A stretch of 52,429 nucleotides of DNA from a virus. Made by a program: the position numbers and the translations under genes. The notes under the pieces were generated by a model. The model saw only the letters and a program-made list of their open reading frames with translations. It did not search any database and was not told the DNA's origin. Shown here in pieces: positions 42,285 to 52,429 of the stretch. Position 1 is the stretch's first letter. Each line of letters opens with the position of its first letter. Where the stretch lies: positions 1 through 52,429 of the IMG/VR virus record IMGVR_UViG_3300037140_000067; one strand, given 5' to 3'.

Positions 42285-42372
42285 ACTCGTGGCTGCGATT
42301 CTCTGGCATCTTGAACCGCATCATCCACGCCTCGCGCACGGGGTCGGGTGGACGGCCTACCGGGTTGCTCAT
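42010..42372 (-). CDS. Small putative DNA-binding protein, last gene of leftward block
   Basis: 120 aa. The first half (MSNPVGRPPDPVREAWMMRF; SHEFTDALMAQLSHCRSDSA) has a G-R-P-P start and helices resembling ribbon-helix-helix or related small regulators, the rest is Ser/Pro-rich and disordered. Its ATGA overlap with the HNH gene supports it. The C-terminal 275 bases lie antisense to the end of the late block, so the disordered tail may simply be forced by the opposite gene. Confidence 0.55.
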   Translation of the reverse strand: MSNPVGRPPDPVREAWMMRFKMPENRSHEFTDALMAQLSHCRSDSARRLILGVSEQNCTPQVMVQPSRGKHSEIHMDSTRSTPPAASVASPPTAHASVPYHQRVASFLARRRPGASALAP

Positions 42373-42608
42373 GCCTTGCTCCTTACCGACTTCGGGTTGT
42401 GTTCCTCGACAAGATGGTGCGTTGCACACTTCGTTTTTACGTTCTCCAACGTGTCAGGACCGCCACGCCCACGGCTGACAATGTGCGCCATGTGGCCAGA
42501 AGTCCAGCTCACCCGCTCATTGCAAACAGTACAGCGCCAGCCGTCGCGCTCGAAGCATCGGCGGCGCAGCATTGCCATGTCCGGGCCTTTCAATCGGACG
42601 GGCCTCAT
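42369..42608 (-). CDS. HNH endonuclease
   Basis: 79 aa. RRRCFERDGWRCTVCNERVS provides the first zinc pair (CxxC), HMAHIVSRGRGGPDTLENVK the catalytic H-I/V-x-R-G-G-x-D segment and CATHH the last part. These are the standard HNH elements in minimal form. The start at 42608 follows GAGG and overlaps the stop of the upstream nuclease gene. Small HNH proteins in phages may nick DNA for packaging or recombination; here it lies far from the terminase genes. Confidence 0.8.
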   Translation of the reverse strand: MRPVRLKGPDMAMLRRRCFERDGWRCTVCNERVSWTSGHMAHIVSRGRGGPDTLENVKTKCATHHLVEEHNPKSVRSKA

Positions 42609-42934
42609 GCTAGTACCTCCCTCATGTCGTCGATCGCCGTAGCTGCCGTCACCATCGCAGTCGAGTAGCGATAGACCTTCCAGCCAAGCCGAGTGGCCAT
42701 ATTGTATTTTCGGCAATCCCCTTCAAATCCTTCGCCGCGGCTGTGTCGCGACTTTCCGAACCTCGTTCCCCCTTCAATCTCGACTGCGATTTTATGCTCC
42801 GGCCAGGCGAAGTCGAAAGCCCACTGGCGACCGGGGCAGAATTTGTACTCACGCTCCGGGGTGAGGTTGTGCGCCTTACAGTGGAGCGCAAACGTGCATT
42901 CGCCCACACTCAGCGCCTTCGGTAGCTTGCTCAC
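42605..42934 (-). CDS. PD-(D/E)XK nuclease, DUF559/Vsr-like
   Basis: 109 aa, GTG start. REYKFCPGRQWAFDFAWPEH and KIAVEIEGG give the D-x(n)-E-x-E pattern of PD-(D/E)XK enzymes of the DUF559/Vsr-like group, followed by SRHSRGEGFEGDCRKYNMAT and LGWKVYRYS, the conserved C-terminal helix and strand. Similar small phage proteins stand where junction resolvases are expected, so branch resolution during recombination is a sensible guess. Linked by overlaps to HNH on one side and to the next gene on the other. Confidence 0.7.
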   Translation of the reverse strand: MSKLPKALSVGECTFALHCKAHNLTPEREYKFCPGRQWAFDFAWPEHKIAVEIEGGTRFGKSRHSRGEGFEGDCRKYNMATRLGWKVYRYSTAMVTAATAIDDMREVLA

Positions 42935-44452: not shown

Positions 44453-44640
44453 GCTTCGCCATCCTCGATCATCTGCGCCATCATTTCGGCGGTGTGGCAT
44501 TCAGACCGTAGATGCTCACCCGGCATACAGCACCGTCCGGGGAAGCAGCATCCGGTGTCGTTTTCCTCATCGTCGCGGTCGCATACACACGGGTAGCAAT
44601 AACATTCGTCGCAGTAGTGAACAGGTGGACCCATTACCAT
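44449..44640 (-). CDS. Very cysteine-rich small protein
   Basis: 63 aa with ten cysteines: HYCDECYCYPCVCDRDDEEN, then CCFPGRCC and SEC. Such density implies binding of one or more metal ions. AAGGAG precedes the ATG at 44640. It sits between the primase-type zinc protein and a helical protein in the early block. Function unknown. Confidence 0.6.
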   Translation of the reverse strand: MVMGPPVHYCDECYCYPCVCDRDDEENDTGCCFPGRCCMPGEHLRSECHTAEMMAQMIEDGEA

Positions 44641-45137
44641 CGTCTCTCCTTCGCTACCGCTGGCAGCATCCTGCGAGATAAGCAGTGATCCGCAGCGGCG
44701 ATACGTTCGGTTGTGGCTCTCAAGATACCTTCCCAAATGCGGTTAGGTTTGTTCGATAAAACGATAGCGCAAGCGGCGATCACTGTCACATCCTTGTCAC
44801 GGTCCTCGCGGGTGTAGCCGTTCTCGATGAAGCGGAGTATCCACGTCCCAATGCGGAGTTCGCTGGCCCTCTTCTCTGCGACCTCCCGCTGGCGTTGGGC
44901 CTCCCGCCACTCCTTCGGGTCACGCTTGGCGAACAGCGTATCCTTCCACGTTAGCCCTACCGCAGCCAGCACGTCGTCAGACTCGCACCCTGCGAAACAG
45001 TGGACGGTGGAGCGCTCGTCATCGGCGTAGATGGCCAGCGTGAGGCTCTTGCCCTTATGGACTGGGCATCGGGCCCTCCACGCCTTGCCCTCGCGCCGGG
45101 GGCGGTCGAACATGCGGGCTAGGGCTTCCGTGGTCAT
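44634..45137 (-). CDS. CHC2-type primase zinc-binding protein without catalytic domain
   Basis: 167 aa. RARCPVHKGKSLTLAIYADD and STVHCFAGCESDDVLAAVGL reproduce the DnaG-type zinc-binding domain (C24, H27, C47, C51) that recognises the template. The rest (REAQRQREVAEKRASELRIG and a short helical end) lacks any Toprim or polymerase motif, and no Toprim gene was seen elsewhere. It may recruit the host primase or another phage protein. It overlaps the helicase-methyltransferase gene by 4 bases. Confidence 0.8.
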   Translation of the reverse strand: MTTEALARMFDRPRREGKAWRARCPVHKGKSLTLAIYADDERSTVHCFAGCESDDVLAAVGLTWKDTLFAKRDPKEWREAQRQREVAEKRASELRIGTWILRFIENGYTREDRDKDVTVIAACAIVLSNKPNRIWEGILRATTERIAAADHCLSRRMLPAVAKERRW

Positions 45138-47461
45138 ATCTCCACCGAATCCACGTCCTCTATCTCAACAGGTTCGTCGTCCGCACCCGCAAACAAACCA
45201 GTGGATGCGCTAAGGGCCGATGCGAGGTTCTTGTGCGCCTGACGGAAGTAAGATGGCTTGAGTTCGGACCCGATGAACTTGCGGCCCATCTCCAAAGCCA
45301 CGAAACCCTCCGAACCGATGCCCGCGAACGGACTCCAAACCGTATCGCCGGGGTTCGTCCACAGCTTCACCGCCCTGCGAATGACTTCCAATTGCAGCGG
45401 GCAGATGTGGCGTTCGTCCTCATGCTCGCGGGCGGAACGATATTGCAGCGTGTCCGATGGGTTGATGTCCATCCACACCGGCGAGGCGTAGTTCTGCCAC
45501 AACTCGACTGGGAACTCTTCCTTCGTGTGCGCGATAGCCTCCGGGTTCTCTCCCGGCTTGCGCATGGTCACAAGGTAGTCAGGCACGCCCTGGCGACTCA
45601 TGGCGGAGTCTTTGCGGATGGTCTTGTGCAACAGGCCCAGAGCCTTCGTGCGCTGCATGGCCGTCACCGGGTCTTTCCAGATGCAGACCTCGGAATGGTA
45701 GATGAAGCCAACATCCTCATACGCGCGGATGATCTCGCCCCGGAAGTCGCGGATGCCGATCACTCCGTCCCGCACCTTCGATGTGGGCAGGTTCATGCAG
45801 TGGATGGAGACGAGGCGACCCGGCATCATCACCCGGTACGACTCTTTGATGAGGAACTTGTAATGCTCCCAAAACTCGTCATGCGTCCGGCTGTTGCCCA
45901 TGTCGCGTTCGCTGGAGGAGTAGGTGTAGAGCGATGCGAACGGCGGCGAGAATACCGAATAGTGGACGGAGTTACTCGGCAACTCTTCGGCCAAGTCGAC
46001 GCAATCGGCAAGGTGAATCGTCCAGTTCTCCGAAGTCTCCACATTGCGCTCATAGACGGACTGTTCGCGCACCGTCCCCCGCAAGTGCATCCGGGTCAAG
46101 TCCTGCATGTTCGCTACCATCTCGTCGGCCATGTGTGTTGCCTCCTTTTCCTTGCGCTTCAAGTTCTCAAGTACGTTGCCTTCGGTCGATGCTGCGATGA
46201 TGTGGACGTGGACGGGGTTCTTTTGCCCGAAGCGCCACGACCGGCGCACCGCCTGATAGAACATCTCCCATGAATCATTGACGCCCACAAAGACCTGATG
46301 CGAGCAGTTCTGGAGATTCATCCCGTAACCAAACATCCGGGCCTTAGTCGAGAGCGCATGTATCTCGTCATTGCAGAACGCAATCGCCGCCTCGATCTTG
46401 AACTCGTCGGTGTCAGTTCCGGTAACTTCGATGCACTTCGGAACGCCCGCGGCGATGGCTTTCGACTCATCATTCAGGTTGCTCCACAACAGCCACGTCT
46501 CGGCAGGTTCCTCCGCAACGATGTCAATCGCCGCTTGCACTCGCTCATTCACCGATGAGCGACGGGCCGCAAGCCGTTCGCCCAACGACTCCGCAGGCAT
46601 GGCGAAGAGGAACCCTTCGCTTGGGGTGGAGACTTCCAAGACGTGCTCATGGTAGACCAGCGGCGGAAGGATGAACATGCTATCGTCATGGCCTATGTCG
46701 CTCGGCTTGTTCATCGACACAGCCCACGTGCATACCCACTTCCAGAAGTCTTTCCGCGCATGGCCTTTGAGCCGCCACTTCTGCGTCTCGCCACCATCAT
46801 GCACGAAGAACGTGGATAGCATCTCCGTGGCCGTCATCACGCCCAGGAACTCCGCATGGTTGCCAAGCTCCATGTAATCGTTCGGGGCCGGTGTGGCCGT
46901 CGCAGCGAGCCGGTACGGGGTATCGCGGAACGCCTCAATCAGAGCGGAGCGGGTAGTCCCATCGAACGATTTCAGGATGCTCGACTCGTCCAGAACGATG
47001 CCATCGAACGCGGTAGGGTCGAACTTGGCTAACCGCTCATAGTTGGTGACGTTCACCCCGCGAGTCGATTCCTTCATCTCGCGGCAGTAGTGGATCTCGA
47101 CCCCGAACTTATCCGCCTCACGGACGGTCTGACGGGCGACCGCGAGCGGAGCCAGAACGAGCACAGCGCCCCCAGTATGCTCCGCCACGACCCGAGCCCA
47201 CTCCAATTCGATGAGCGTCTTGCCGAGCCCGGTACCGAGGAATGCAGCGGCCTTGCCAAGTCGCAGCGCCCATCCGGTCACGTCGCGTTGGTGGGGGAAC
47301 ATCGCCGGGTGGAGCGGGGGGATCGTGGTAAGTCCCGCCGCATGGCATCGGATTGACTTCGCCGCGATGAACTCCGCGTACTTGTCCCGATGCTCCAAGA
47401 ACTCTGGACCCATCACCACGCCGGGATCAAAATGAACCGGCTCGCCATCTATGATTTTCAT
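45134..47461 (-). CDS. Superfamily 2 helicase fused to DNA methyltransferase
   Basis: 775 aa. N-terminal SNF2-like ATPase: Walker A LGTGLGKT (75-82), LDES (157-160) as the DExx box, ATATPAPND (187-195), and QAVRRSWRFGQ (403-413) as motif VI. C-terminal beta-class N6-adenine or N4-cytosine methyltransferase: SPPF (505-508) before the SAM site PFAGIGSEGFVALEMGRKFI (711-730). Both halves look complete. The fusion recalls DarB of P1, which protects injected DNA, and restriction-modification translocases. It would methylate phage DNA while moving along it. Followed by a separate helicase gene, with ATGA-type overlap. Confidence 0.85.
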   Translation of the reverse strand: MKIIDGEPVHFDPGVVMGPEFLEHRDKYAEFIAAKSIRCHAAGLTTIPPLHPAMFPHQRDVTGWALRLGKAAAFLGTGLGKTLIELEWARVVAEHTGGAVLVLAPLAVARQTVREADKFGVEIHYCREMKESTRGVNVTNYERLAKFDPTAFDGIVLDESSILKSFDGTTRSALIEAFRDTPYRLAATATPAPNDYMELGNHAEFLGVMTATEMLSTFFVHDGGETQKWRLKGHARKDFWKWVCTWAVSMNKPSDIGHDDSMFILPPLVYHEHVLEVSTPSEGFLFAMPAESLGERLAARRSSVNERVQAAIDIVAEEPAETWLLWSNLNDESKAIAAGVPKCIEVTGTDTDEFKIEAAIAFCNDEIHALSTKARMFGYGMNLQNCSHQVFVGVNDSWEMFYQAVRRSWRFGQKNPVHVHIIAASTEGNVLENLKRKEKEATHMADEMVANMQDLTRMHLRGTVREQSVYERNVETSENWTIHLADCVDLAEELPSNSVHYSVFSPPFASLYTYSSSERDMGNSRTHDEFWEHYKFLIKESYRVMMPGRLVSIHCMNLPTSKVRDGVIGIRDFRGEIIRAYEDVGFIYHSEVCIWKDPVTAMQRTKALGLLHKTIRKDSAMSRQGVPDYLVTMRKPGENPEAIAHTKEEFPVELWQNYASPVWMDINPSDTLQYRSAREHEDERHICPLQLEVIRRAVKLWTNPGDTVWSPFAGIGSEGFVALEMGRKFIGSELKPSYFRQAHKNLASALSASTGLFAGADDEPVEIEDVDSVEI

Positions 47462-49086
47462 GCTTGCCTCCGTTGAAAATGGACATCTAAAGCCGCCGAA
47501 ACCTGCCCACGGGTAGCCCCGTTCGGGATGGGGATGCGGAGTTTATGGCAGAGGGCTATCTGCTTCTCGCTCGGCCCCGTCTGCCGCCAGTGCGAGTCCC
47601 GCATGAGTACCGCCTTGGGAAGCACGCCGGAATCGACCACCAACTTATCCCCGATGTTGAACGCTCCGGCCAGGTTCTGCGCCTGAATCTCTACGAGCCT
47701 CCCTGCCACGAATCCGCGTACCCACCACTCGCCCAGCAGGTCGGCGGACAGCGTGACCCGCTCGCGGCCTACGGGCAGCGTGTAGGCGTCGCCCTGCTTC
47801 GTCCATGCCAGTTCAGTGAGCCGTGAGACTTCGGGCGGGTAGCTCACCTTGAACAGCGAGATATTCTCAGCCATCGTCTTCAGTTCGTCGAGATTGCGGA
47901 GGTCGGCAACGTTGGCGGTGGGGAACTCTGCCGCGATGCGCTCCAACTGCTCCCGCGCCTTGGTAAACCGCTCGCCTTTGAGGTCCAAATCCTTCGGCAA
48001 TCCAAGCAGGCTGGAGACGTTGCATAGGTCGTGGCGCTTGCTCGAATCGCACACGTCCAGCACGAGCAAATCATCTTTACCGTCCGCAATCCGGGTTCCC
48101 CGGCCTACCTCCTGGGCGTAGCGTACGAAGCTCTTGCGTGGTGCTGCCAGCACGATGCATGACACCTTCGGATCGTCGTAGCCTATGCCAAGCAACTGAG
48201 CGCAGCAGATGACGGGGTACGTCCCTGCCTTGTGCGCGTCGATCTTCGCTTGGCGGTCGGGATCTTCGCCCCAGACTGCTTTCGCGCCGATACTGTGAGC
48301 CTCGAACGTGGCCGCAAGGTCGAGCGCGTGCTGCACGTTGGCGGTGAAGCAGATGGTGCGGCGCTGCCATGCATGCTTCGCCCATTCCTTGACGACGATG
48401 GCGTTACGCTCGGGCGTGTTGACGGCGGTAGCAAGCTCGCCCTCGGCAAACTCTCCCATGCGAACGTGTACGCCATCGAGGTTGGCTTTGCCTGATACGC
48501 GCATTGCCCGAATATCGCAGAGCCATCCTGTCTCAATACCCTTGCGGATGTCCATGTCGAACACGATCTCGTCGAAGAGGTGCTTCAGCCCCTGGCCGTC
48601 GTTCCGGTTGGGCGTGGCGGTGATGCCAAGGAATAGCGTCTTGGTGCGCGTGCGGTCGAGCAGCCCAAAGTAGTCGTAGACGCGCTTGAACGAGTCGGCC
48701 ATACCGATGTGCGCCTCATCTTGGATGATGGCGTCGAACTCGTCGGGCTGGAACTTCTTGATGCGGTCAGAACCCTTGCGCCCAAGCGTCGGGATGGAGG
48801 CGATTACGAACTGATCGAGCGGCCCGGAGGTCTGCCCCGCCATCTCCGTTCCCACCCACGCGCCGGGGTTCCACGCATGGAACGCCTTAGCCGCTTGCTG
48901 CGCGAGTTGATCCATGTGGACGGCAAACATCACCTTGCCGGTAAAGCCGTGGTTGCGGCGCAGGTTGGCGGCGATGGCAGTTTTTCCGGTGCCGGTTGCC
49001 ATCACTGCCAACTGGTTCAGCACGCCTCGGCTGAGCGCGGCCTTGGACCGGGTTAGGCAGTCGGACTGGTAATCTCTAAGCTGCAC
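47458..49086 (-). CDS. DEAH-box superfamily 2 DNA helicase
   Basis: 542 aa, GTG start. Walker A MATGTGKT (29-36), DEAH (123-126), GITATPNRNDGQG as motif III and YAQEVGRGTR as motif VI make a full SF2 core. The C-terminal 150 residues include a short SAP-like or small winged segment (SEKQIALCHKLRIPIPNGAT). Such helicases act in phage branch migration, recombination-dependent replication or repair, in step with the ERF protein. It directly precedes the methyltransferase fusion in the operon. Confidence 0.85.
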   Translation of the reverse strand: MQLRDYQSDCLTRSKAALSRGVLNQLAVMATGTGKTAIAANLRRNHGFTGKVMFAVHMDQLAQQAAKAFHAWNPGAWVGTEMAGQTSGPLDQFVIASIPTLGRKGSDRIKKFQPDEFDAIIQDEAHIGMADSFKRVYDYFGLLDRTRTKTLFLGITATPNRNDGQGLKHLFDEIVFDMDIRKGIETGWLCDIRAMRVSGKANLDGVHVRMGEFAEGELATAVNTPERNAIVVKEWAKHAWQRRTICFTANVQHALDLAATFEAHSIGAKAVWGEDPDRQAKIDAHKAGTYPVICCAQLLGIGYDDPKVSCIVLAAPRKSFVRYAQEVGRGTRIADGKDDLLVLDVCDSSKRHDLCNVSSLLGLPKDLDLKGERFTKAREQLERIAAEFPTANVADLRNLDELKTMAENISLFKVSYPPEVSRLTELAWTKQGDAYTLPVGRERVTLSADLLGEWWVRGFVAGRLVEIQAQNLAGAFNIGDKLVVDSGVLPKAVLMRDSHWRQTGPSEKQIALCHKLRIPIPNGATRGQVSAALDVHFQRRQA

Positions 49087-50655: not shown

Positions 50656-51689
50656 CAGTAGATGATCTTCGTGTGTGGGATCTTGCCCTGGGCGATGGCC
50701 ACGACGAGCTTCTTTGCATTAGCATCGGAGATGCCCAATGCAACGACGGCTGCTATCGCCACCCGGTAAATCTCAGTCTTGTGTGCGGTGCTGTCCTCTC
50801 TGGCTTTGGTAGCGGCATCCTCCGCCGCCTTCGCGTCCGCTGTCCGCTTCTGCTCGGCTGCCACGGCGCGTTCCGCTGCATCCTTGGCATCCTGCTCGGC
50901 TTTGACTGCGCGAGCCTCGGCTGCCTCGGTGTCGCGTTTGGCCTTCGCCTCGCGCTCTGCGGTATCCCGCTCGGCCTTCTCGGTCGCTTCGCGTGCTACC
51001 CGCTCGTCGCGTTCGGCCTGCTCCTTTGCCTGGCGATCCTTAGCCTCTTTGGACTCGCGGACGATGCGTTCGGCCTCCAGTTTTTTGAAGGCAACCTGCT
51101 GCTCCTCGTGATTCTTTGTCTCTGCAAGAATTTTGCTGAGACGCATGGAGGACGCATCGTTCGACGTGCCAAATCGTTCGGCAAACTCTTCCCAATTGCG
51201 TAGCGCAAACTCGTCGAGCTTGGCAATGCGGCTCTCGATCTCCGCGACAGTGGCCCCGAAAGGTACGTTGCTGAGTTCGATAACATCTTTCAACGCCTGT
51301 TCGTGAGCCTCAACGCGGGCCTTGACTGCTTCCTCGTAGTCCGTGAGGGGCTTGCGGGCTTGATCGCGTAGAGCGGTAAGCGCTTCCTTCATCCGCTTGC
51401 GCTCGGCGTCGATGTCCGTCGCCTTGCGCTTGATGTCCATGCTGAGATTCTTCCCGTAGTCCTCCAGCCGTGCCATCGAACTGGAAACCTTGCGGGCAAG
51501 AGAAGCAATCGCCTTGCGTCCCTTTTCGCAAGAGATGTCGGGCTGAAACTGCTCCACCTCTTTGCGGATCAGGCTGATGATTTTGTCAAGGCCGTTCGGA
51601 ACGAACAGTTCCGACGCCTTCTCTTCTGGGGGAATGATTTCCCCGATGGGTGTTCCAACGATGATTTCGTCTTCGATTATGCCGTTCAT
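50655..51689 (-). CDS. ERF-linked coiled-coil protein, copy B (complete)
   Basis: 344 aa. MNGIIEDEIIVGTPIGEIIP at the N-terminus, helical region from about residue 25 (LDKIISLIRKEVEQFQPDIS), a central segment that differs strongly from copy A (residues about 163-197: here EFAERFGTSNDASSMRLSKI), then a 120-residue coiled coil (EQAERDERVAREATEKAERD) and a small folded end (VALGISDANAKKLVVAIAQG). Two bases after the ERF stop, AGGAGG before ATG. A partner of ERF is suggested by linkage only. Confidence 0.8.
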   Translation of the reverse strand: MNGIIEDEIIVGTPIGEIIPPEEKASELFVPNGLDKIISLIRKEVEQFQPDISCEKGRKAIASLARKVSSSMARLEDYGKNLSMDIKRKATDIDAERKRMKEALTALRDQARKPLTDYEEAVKARVEAHEQALKDVIELSNVPFGATVAEIESRIAKLDEFALRNWEEFAERFGTSNDASSMRLSKILAETKNHEEQQVAFKKLEAERIVRESKEAKDRQAKEQAERDERVAREATEKAERDTAEREAKAKRDTEAAEARAVKAEQDAKDAAERAVAAEQKRTADAKAAEDAATKAREDSTAHKTEIYRVAIAAVVALGISDANAKKLVVAIAQGKIPHTKIIY

Positions 51690-52429
51690 GGCTACGCCTC
51701 CTGAGCGTTTGCGGTGGTTATCATGCTGTCGAGTTGCGTCTTGATTGCGGTCCAGTCGTGGCCCTTGCTCTCGCAGAACTTCATCTGCTCGTCGGGTGTC
51801 CAGTCGAGCATGGCAAAAGCTGCCTTGACATCTTGGGGCATGAGCGGGGCTTTGAACCAATCGAGGATGGCGCTGTACTTCCGGGCGGGGATGAGGCTGC
51901 CGGCCTTTTGTCCGACAAACTCATAGAGTTGCGCGGCCTTACGCTCGGTGCGCTTCAGTTCTTCCTTGATGTGCGCGGCCTCCTCGTTAGTGATGGGGGT
52001 AGCGTCTTCCAGGACTGCGGCGCGAGATGCGGCCTCAGTGCGTTGCTGGGCTCCAGTAAGGTCTTTGCCGCGTTGTGCTGCGTTCTTGGATACCTGGGCA
52101 TCCTCGTTCTCTTCTGGCGCAACACCAGCCAACCCGCACAGTCCTTGCCGACGCGCATACGAGTGTTCCGCGCCGAATGTCTGGGGATCATTGTTCGGAC
52201 CGAGTGGGATGCCGTCATCGTTTGCCCACTGGCCGGACGAGTGGTGCAGTTCGGTTACGAGATACATCCGGCCTTCAACACGACGGATTGGTTGGCGTAC
52301 GCAGATCTCTTCGGCAGTGAGGCACGGAAGAATGGCGGTTAGCACGTCGGCAAGATCGGCGTAGGCATAGTCGTAACTGTATTCCTTGCCGCTGCCCTTA
52401 GCTGTCCCTTTGACGGTGGCCTTCCTGGT
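50855..52429. repeat. Diverged direct repeat, copy B (right end)
   Basis: Collinear with 1-1575 at an offset of 50,854, no indels. Together the pair defines the closure of the map. See copy A for the pattern of identity. Confidence 0.9.
51692..52429 (-). CDS. ERF-family annealing protein, copy B (5' end cut by window edge)
   Basis: Residues 29-273 of the same ERF protein as 838-1659; the window ends before its start. All family motifs are present. In the C-terminal 217 residues I see three substitutions relative to copy A: Ala for Thr in NEEA(A/T)HIKE, Ala for Pro in GQK(A/P)GSL and Ala for Thr in WFK(A/T)PLM. Many DNA differences between the copies are silent. Confidence 0.8.
   Translation of the reverse strand, partial: TRKATVKGTAKGSGKEYSYDYAYADLADVLTAILPCLTAEEICVRQPIRRVEGRMYLVTELHHSSGQWANDDGIPLGPNNDPQTFGAEHSYARRQGLCGLAGVAPEENEDAQVSKNAAQRGKDLTGAQQRTEAASRAAVLEDATPITNEEAAHIKEELKRTERKAAQLYEFVGQKAGSLIPARKYSAILDWFKAPLMPQDVKAAFAMLDWTPDEQMKFCESKGHDWTAIKTQLDSMITTANAQEA

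Follow-up and report, generated by a model that had tools for sequence, protein, structure and literature searches.

The DNA stretch analysed here, called the window, is the whole virus record IMGVR_UViG_3300037140_000067 (52,429 bases). On its minus strand it carries a fusion gene for a protein of 775 amino acids (aa), in which a Swi2/Snf2-type ATPase is joined to a beta-class amino-methyltransferase. A preliminary description, made from the sequence alone, had recognized a superfamily 2 (SF2) ATPase and a beta-class DNA methyltransferase in this one protein, with intact motifs on both sides, and had proposed structure prediction as a check of the two-domain model. The gene and its domains and motifs are located as follows.

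45134..47461, minus strand: fusion gene, Swi2/Snf2-type ATPase and beta-class amino-methyltransferase, 775 aa, ATG start
46106..47332, minus strand: motor domain, residues 44-452, from the AlphaFold2 model and VIA-align
47216..47236, minus strand: Walker A motif GTGLGKT, residues 76-82; G78, G80 and K81 are invariant in an alignment of 39 proteins
46979..46993, minus strand: Walker B motif LDESS, residues 157-161; DESS is present in 179 of 184 relatives
46223..46255, minus strand: motif VI QAVRRSWRFGQ, residues 403-413, from motif conservation in relatives
45191..46030, minus strand: methyltransferase domain, residues 478-757, from Pfam PF01555 and the predicted model
45938..45949, minus strand: catalytic motif IV SPPF, residues 505-508; SPPF in 178 and SPPY in 3 of 184 relatives
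45422..45679, minus strand: motif VIII and presumed target-recognition side, residues 595-680, with putative boundaries, from column conservation
45311..45331, minus strand: motif I PFAGIGS, binding S-adenosylmethionine (SAM), residues 711-717, from motif conservation in relatives

According to the Pfam search, residues 500-743 match N6_N4_Mtase (PF01555) with an E-value of 1.4e-18, above the curated cut-off, and SNF2 and ResIII match at about residues 76-212, both below their cut-offs. No nuclease domain was found in the fusion protein by this search, which gave motor and methylase domains only. The motor half also carries a TATP motif. In the methyltransferase half, SPPF (motif IV) precedes PFAGIGS (motif I), which we take to be the beta-class order; the names and numbering of the motifs are likewise our assignment.

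The AlphaFold2 model of the whole protein (39 fused sequences) has a mean predicted local distance difference test score (pLDDT) of 77.1 and a predicted template-modelling score (pTM) of 0.69. Its confidence is low at residues 597-625 and 659-688, where the domain-only model is better. Residues 44-452 of the model best match Swi2/Snf2 remodellers (INO80, 8oo7_G; Z 32.1, 371 aligned residues, root-mean-square deviation 2.9). The methyltransferase domain modelled alone (residues 478-759, 121 sequences) reaches a mean pLDDT of 90.1 and a pTM of 0.89. It is superposed nearly end to end on TTHA0409 (2zie_B; Z 26.9, 222 aligned residues, root-mean-square deviation 2.3), and the match to 2zif_B, which is TTHA0409 with an S-adenosyl ligand, gives Z 26.5; the fold of a SAM enzyme is thus kept in the predicted structure. 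TTHA0409 (2zie, 2zif and 2zig) is a Thermus protein titled 'putative' DNA modification methylase, whose target is not given. It is the closest solved structure to the methylase half, with 24% identity and an SPPY motif, and its solved chain has no motor. Further fold matches are MboIIA and CcrM (Z 24.8), the N4-cytosine methyltransferases bdelloid N4CMT (8s9m; 23.9) and M.PvuII (1boo; 21.2), both without a motor and 16-17% identical, and the type III Mod subunits 4zcf_B (Z 20.5) and 7dsu_B (Z 19.3). M.PvuII is one half of a restriction pair. The bdelloid enzyme bears a chromodomain, according to the available part of PMC8885841.

From the predicted folds and the motifs, the motor half is a Swi2/Snf2 ATPase with two RecA lobes, and the methyltransferase half is a beta-class amino-methyltransferase of PF01555 with the SAM-enzyme fold. 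The union of the two enzymes in one protein is therefore borne out by the PF01555 match, the motif order and the predicted folds, and the proposed structural check gives a Snf2 fold at 44-452 and a methyltransferase fold at 478-757. The motifs are intact on both sides, as had been described (GTGLGKT, LDESS, TATP and QAVRRSWRFGQ; SPPF and PFAGIGS), and they are kept in 184 relatives.

The fusion protein was compared by tblastn with phage and plasmid collections. It matches 340 of 50,697 phage records, all at less than 60% identity, and 303 of the 340 cover at least 80% of the protein. Because of this coverage and the motifs kept in 184 non-redundant relatives, the fusion is beyond chance. Among 72,556 plasmid records 93 match, eight of them over at least 80% of the protein. 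Confirmed matches amount to 426 viral contig stretches and 240 stretches in prokaryote genome contigs; the best 80 of these 240 come from Proteobacteria, Bacteroidota, Bacillota, Acidobacteria, Verrucomicrobia and others, including one Methanosaeta bin. A megablast search of window positions 30000-52429 gave no match in the phage collection.

With a Snf2-type motor followed by a PF01555 methyltransferase over most of its length, and with its PHROG matches, the fusion is by sequence a member of a phage helicase-methylase fusion family (phrog_16/62/67 type). Several phage records are already annotated 'DNA helicase/methylase'. The proteins so named in mycobacteriophages and Arthrobacter phages (DosHalletts gp68, Faja gp78) have the same motor-then-methylase order over at least 90% coverage and are about 29-33% identical to the window fusion. 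Pacc40 gp60 has the same architecture; it is noted in work on homing inserts, and its insert holds a hidden HNH-like open reading frame (ORF), with no function given for the protein in the portion of PMC11855218 available to us. A methylase-helicase dyad, widely coupled in phages and with DarB as archetype, is already in print (PMC5512222, available in part). No activity test of the motor-methylase architecture was found in the literature searched, with subscription journals mostly outside its reach. The fusion protein thus belongs to a known, widespread and already annotated phage family, to which the present work adds the linkage of the pair.

Linkage was counted in the best 80 of at least 600 methylase relatives and the best 80 of 327 motor relatives, with some contigs common to both samples. 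Anchored on the methylase, 60 of the 80 viral loci are fused, 18 are split with a motor gene nearby (gaps of at most 331 bp), and two have the methylase alone; both of the latter (L191 and L257) start at a contig end. Anchored on the motor, 57 loci are fused and 23 are split, with gaps of up to about 1 kb, and none has the motor alone. A redundant set of 180 loci, with the window locus included, contains 141 fused genes, 38 split pairs in the order motor then methylase, and one reversed pair. The reversed pair is found in Alteromonas phage XX1924 (L090:3971-7346), in the order methylase, unknown gene, motor.

The motif survey kept 314 of 334 loci; the 20 that failed the score or length filters include the divergent L086, L087, L089 and L179. 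The 184 non-redundant pairs comprise 126 fused and 58 split ones, and the FastTree phylogeny needs at least 23 changes between the joined and split states. These changes indicate that joining is not required and that proximity is. Sequencing errors could account for some of the splits in metagenome contigs; split pairs are also present in the named phages Emma, S-LBS1 and GMA1. We read the gene arrangement as that of an obligate pair in the closest viral relatives, with the two halves probably serving one function in two parts.

The genes between split halves include one annotated endonuclease, a 5-methylcytosine (m5C) methylase and unknown genes. On a Rhodoplanes plasmid, the split motor and methylase genes flank a gene annotated DNA cytosine methyltransferase (L174:6383-7279), and on the Escherichia fergusonii plasmid pEF06 (L177) the pair is fragmented into several pieces. 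One relative (L015:5929-9252) carries a 315-aa in-frame insert with intein-like ends (C first, HN last), and this insert interrupts the Walker B motif exactly between DE and SS. L015 was for this reason excluded from one alignment, in which identical sequences were collapsed and 69 were kept. A longer relative in Mycobacterium phage Minnie (L091:2944-6585) is annotated 'anaerobic ribonucleoside reductase large subunit', which is probably a misnaming caused by an insert.

The ATPase and methyltransferase motifs are conserved together across relatives. The mean identity among the 184 relatives is 0.595 for the methylase and 0.519 for the motor, and the methylase value is the higher in 87% of 16,836 pairs. 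This difference bears on the view that the protein works chiefly as a DNA motor in recombination or fork processing, with a methylase half that merely regulates or recruits the motor. The conserved motor motifs fit such a role, as do the genes for a second helicase and an annealing protein on the same strand, but the methylase is the more conserved half and keeps its catalytic motifs, and we regard this view as improbable.

In 39 close fused proteins, residues 601-680 are the most conserved of the compared regions (0.795; motor 0.592). In 121 methylase domains, the mean column identity of residues 595-680 is 0.673 versus 0.591 elsewhere (0.752 for 595-640, 0.378 for 641-653 and 0.679 for 654-680), which is about equal to motif IV (0.73), motif X (0.722) and motifs I-III (0.661). 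A signature of this side, RTK..LL with ASPVWMDI, recurs slightly altered in relatives down to 44% identity. As a control, an m5C phage methylase family was used (48 proteins, mean 62% identity to the query), in which residues 281-440 are presumably the recognition part, following our own motif assignment. This part is the least conserved of the control, with 0.32-0.52 in 20-residue blocks versus 0.57-0.81 in the first 180 residues. The beta-class families considered as controls are too small (the second methyltransferase of L045, 3 loci; the methyltransferase of Lactobacillus phage LBR48, 1 locus). The recognition side of the fusion family thus appears about as conserved as the catalytic motifs, and because it varies little, unlike that of the m5C control, the target is probably common to most of the family.

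Motif IV is SPPF in 178, SPPY in 3, SLPF in 2 and SCPY in 1 of the 184 non-redundant relatives. SPPY is common to most bacterial N4-cytosine methyltransferases, and the bacterial N6-adenine enzymes have DPPY, as stated in the part of PMC8885841 at hand. SPPF or SPPY in 181 of 184 pairs suggests N4-methylcytosine as the product. The loci with SLPF or SCPY are L261, L262, L266, L014, L196 and L276, and these relatives may be inactive or altered enzymes.

In our interpretation, to which we assign a probability of about 55%, the fusion protein is a motor-coupled orphan DNA methyltransferase that marks phage DNA at a largely family-wide target, probably for protection. The Snf2-type ATPase would walk along double-stranded DNA and carry or position the methyltransferase. 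The group modified by the methyltransferase would be an exocyclic amino group, with N4 of cytosine as the likeliest, at a short target shared by most of the family. The mark may, less certainly, be placed on newly made phage DNA, because the gene sits among replication and recombination genes. The benefit of the mark, again less certainly, could be protection from host nucleases.

Several points weigh against this interpretation. One would not expect a shield against varied host nucleases to have a fixed target, and this makes the protection step weaker. The motor could act on something besides delivery of the methylase. The linkage samples consist of the best-scoring relatives, so that more distant ones lie outside the count. 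Emma, GMA1 and snusmum9-1 deviate from the recognition-side signature, and residues 641-653 are poorly conserved inside the recognition side itself. The conservation control is an m5C family and not a beta-class one. As for the chemistry, SLPF or SCPY stands at motif IV in 3 of 184 relatives, and the domain alone is no evidence of the product, as the specificity for N6-methyladenine or N4-methylcytosine has switched repeatedly (PMC8885841, available in part). A DNA-marking role is the most likely reading, and the mark may serve protection or regulation.

The genes around the fusion gene are as follows.

47458..49086, minus strand: separate DEAH SF2 helicase, 542 aa, upstream of the fusion gene, 4-bp overlap
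44634..45137, minus strand: DnaG-type zinc-ribbon (CHC2) primase-like protein, 167 aa, below the Pfam cut-off, downstream of the fusion gene, 4-bp overlap
51692..52345, minus strand: ERF-type single-strand annealing protein, upstream on the same strand, copy truncated by the record end
42605..42934, minus strand: DUF559/VSR-like small nuclease candidate (phrog_503, function not assigned), below the Pfam cut-off
42369..42716: HNH gene, overlapping the DUF559/VSR-like gene

The DEAH helicase directly precedes the fusion gene in transcription order, in agreement with the preliminary description. Because 4-bp overlaps lie on both sides of the fusion gene, the helicase, fusion and zinc-ribbon genes are, from their arrangement, probably translated together. 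Further small genes besides that of the ERF-type protein lie upstream on the same strand, and a fuller copy of the annealing protein is encoded at 838-1836. The record ends (1-1575 and 50855-52429) are direct repeats of 1.6 kb, 91.4% identical over 1,577 columns, and the ERF gene and a phrog_1376 gene are each present twice because of this repetition. The genome may be circular or permuted, with an assembly that drew on strains differing slightly from each other.

The neighbours were scanned at 16 non-redundant viral loci (149 of 151 ORFs) and at 16 prokaryotic loci (146 ORFs); ORFs overlapping by at least 50 bases had been dropped from both sets. The prokaryotic loci come from 18 of 80 genome loci that were picked by hand (161 ORFs), with L110 and L101 excluded. 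No Pfam family has more than three matches among the 149 viral ORFs, and the top PHROG is the terminase large subunit with six. The prokaryotic neighbours are prophage-like, with S24 peptidase (5), DnaB (3), BRO (3) and Enc34 single-stranded-DNA-binding protein (2). Of the 16 viral loci, which have full flanks, 4 have a relative of the window's DEAH helicase close by; at E 1e-3, such a relative is found at 35 of 80 loci in a redundant viral sample. The pairing with a second helicase that had been described holds at the window locus but does not define the family, and the helicase was rejected as a fixed partner of the fusion and is optional. Its top NCBIfam matches are EcoAI-type HsdR and RadD/YejH, both far below cut-off, and its PADLOC matches mREase_IV and REase_I span the motor region only.

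In cells, CcrM and Dam place comparable timing marks. The fusion protein could similarly control when replication, packaging or transcription takes place by methylating a fixed motif, with the motor coupling the marking to moving replication or recombination machinery and with nuclease protection secondary. The recognition side conserved across phages, prophages and contigs of many phyla is consistent with this, and so are the annealing protein, primase-like and RadD-like helicase genes near the fusion. A similar set is present in cyanophage S-LBS1, consisting of a primase-polymerase, the split motor and methylase, a second helicase, VRR-NUC, an annealing protein and a single-stranded-DNA-binding protein, and it is named a replication module in the accessible text of PMC6157547. 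On the other hand, that same text gives a DNA methylase in S-LBS1 and S-CBS3 and not in S-CBS1, so that the motor-methylase gene looks accessory, and the neighbourhood is variable at the 16 viral loci, with a terminase as its top PHROG. We regard a replication or life-cycle mark as possible but unlikely. The coupling to replication that had been suggested for this locus rests on the neighbouring genes, and the fusion gene itself looks accessory.

No restriction enzyme cognate to the methylase is prominent among the 25 commonest PADLOC families in the neighbours of the 16 viral and 16 prokaryotic loci; the PADLOC and Pfam tallies cover these commonest families, and a rarer nuclease could escape them. 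The labels mREase_IV, REase_I, REase_MTase_IIG and ZorD have 2-3 members each among the neighbours, and these are probably SF2-motor or methylase matches. The preliminary description had stated that no matching nuclease is adjacent. None was found in the fusion itself, but the small nuclease-like genes (DUF559/VSR-like and HNH, 42369-42934) lie 2.2-2.8 kb downstream, and no tie between the methylase and either of them was seen in this analysis.

These results also bear on a remnant of a restriction-modification system, of type III or type ISP-like, that has lost its nuclease. In type III systems (EcoP15I, 4zcf; Mbo45V Mod, 7dsu), an SF2 motor works with Mod, whose beta-class fold is shared by the fusion, and a methylase joined to an SF2 motor is reminiscent of Res-Mod. 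However, the window fusion has no nuclease domain that was found by Pfam, its methylase half is shorter than the Mod chains, and the top structural matches of its Snf2-type motor are Snf2 remodellers. Hundreds of phage records carry the family, and the examined relatives keep their motifs on the motor side and on the methylase side alike, which does not resemble decay. Together with the lack of a prominent cognate restriction enzyme among the commonest neighbour families, this makes a remnant the least probable account considered here.

The locus had also been likened to DarB of P1, as an anti-restriction or DNA-marking system. In a DarB-type system, a virion-packed and injected protein would shield the incoming DNA in cis. 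According to the available part of PMC5512222, DarB is a virion component that joins a methylase to a Snf2-type motor and protects P1 DNA, and a type III-like mechanism of translocation and then methylation is proposed for the dyad. The window fusion shares with this dyad the Snf2-type motor and the amino-methyltransferase, in one chain or in adjacent phage genes. DarB is of 2255 aa, and in the same source its methylase is of the gamma class with NPP(Y/F) and precedes the motor, whereas the window fusion is of 775 aa and of the beta class with SPPF, and its motor comes first. In a one-sequence search against P1 DarB, the profiles of the two halves give marginal scores (methylase 3.7 bits, E 0.0015; motor 0.6 bits, E 0.01). 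A search of the DarB sequence for [NDS]PP[YFW] gave no match, although NPP(Y/F) is given for the group in the part of PMC5512222 seen. Kinship with DarB is weak on these marginal scores. DarB's gamma-class, methylase-before-motor arrangement is not found here, and DarB is at most a remote analogue. With the replication-type gene neighbours in addition, DarB-type antirestriction is very improbable for this protein; what stands of the earlier comparison is the marking role, which is the most likely one.

The usual explanation of orphan phage methyltransferases is that they act as shields and follow the restriction enzymes of the host. Among the relatives studied, no methylase is without a Snf2-type motor wherever the contig allows a view, and the recognition side varies little across phages of unrelated hosts. 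Beyond the motor-coupled marking proposed above, a bolder statement can be made, which is tentative and rather unlikely to hold. The N4-cytosine methyltransferase would have the Snf2 translocase as its obligate, ATP-burning partner and would keep one target in phages whose hosts belong to many phyla. The pair would form a large enzyme class of processive DNA-marking machines, giving replicating DNA a phage-wide mark of identity rather than a host-specific restriction shield. If there is one family-wide mark, it would show in the methylomes of a small number of cultured carriers, and it would become possible to test why an ATP-driven motor is needed to modify DNA.

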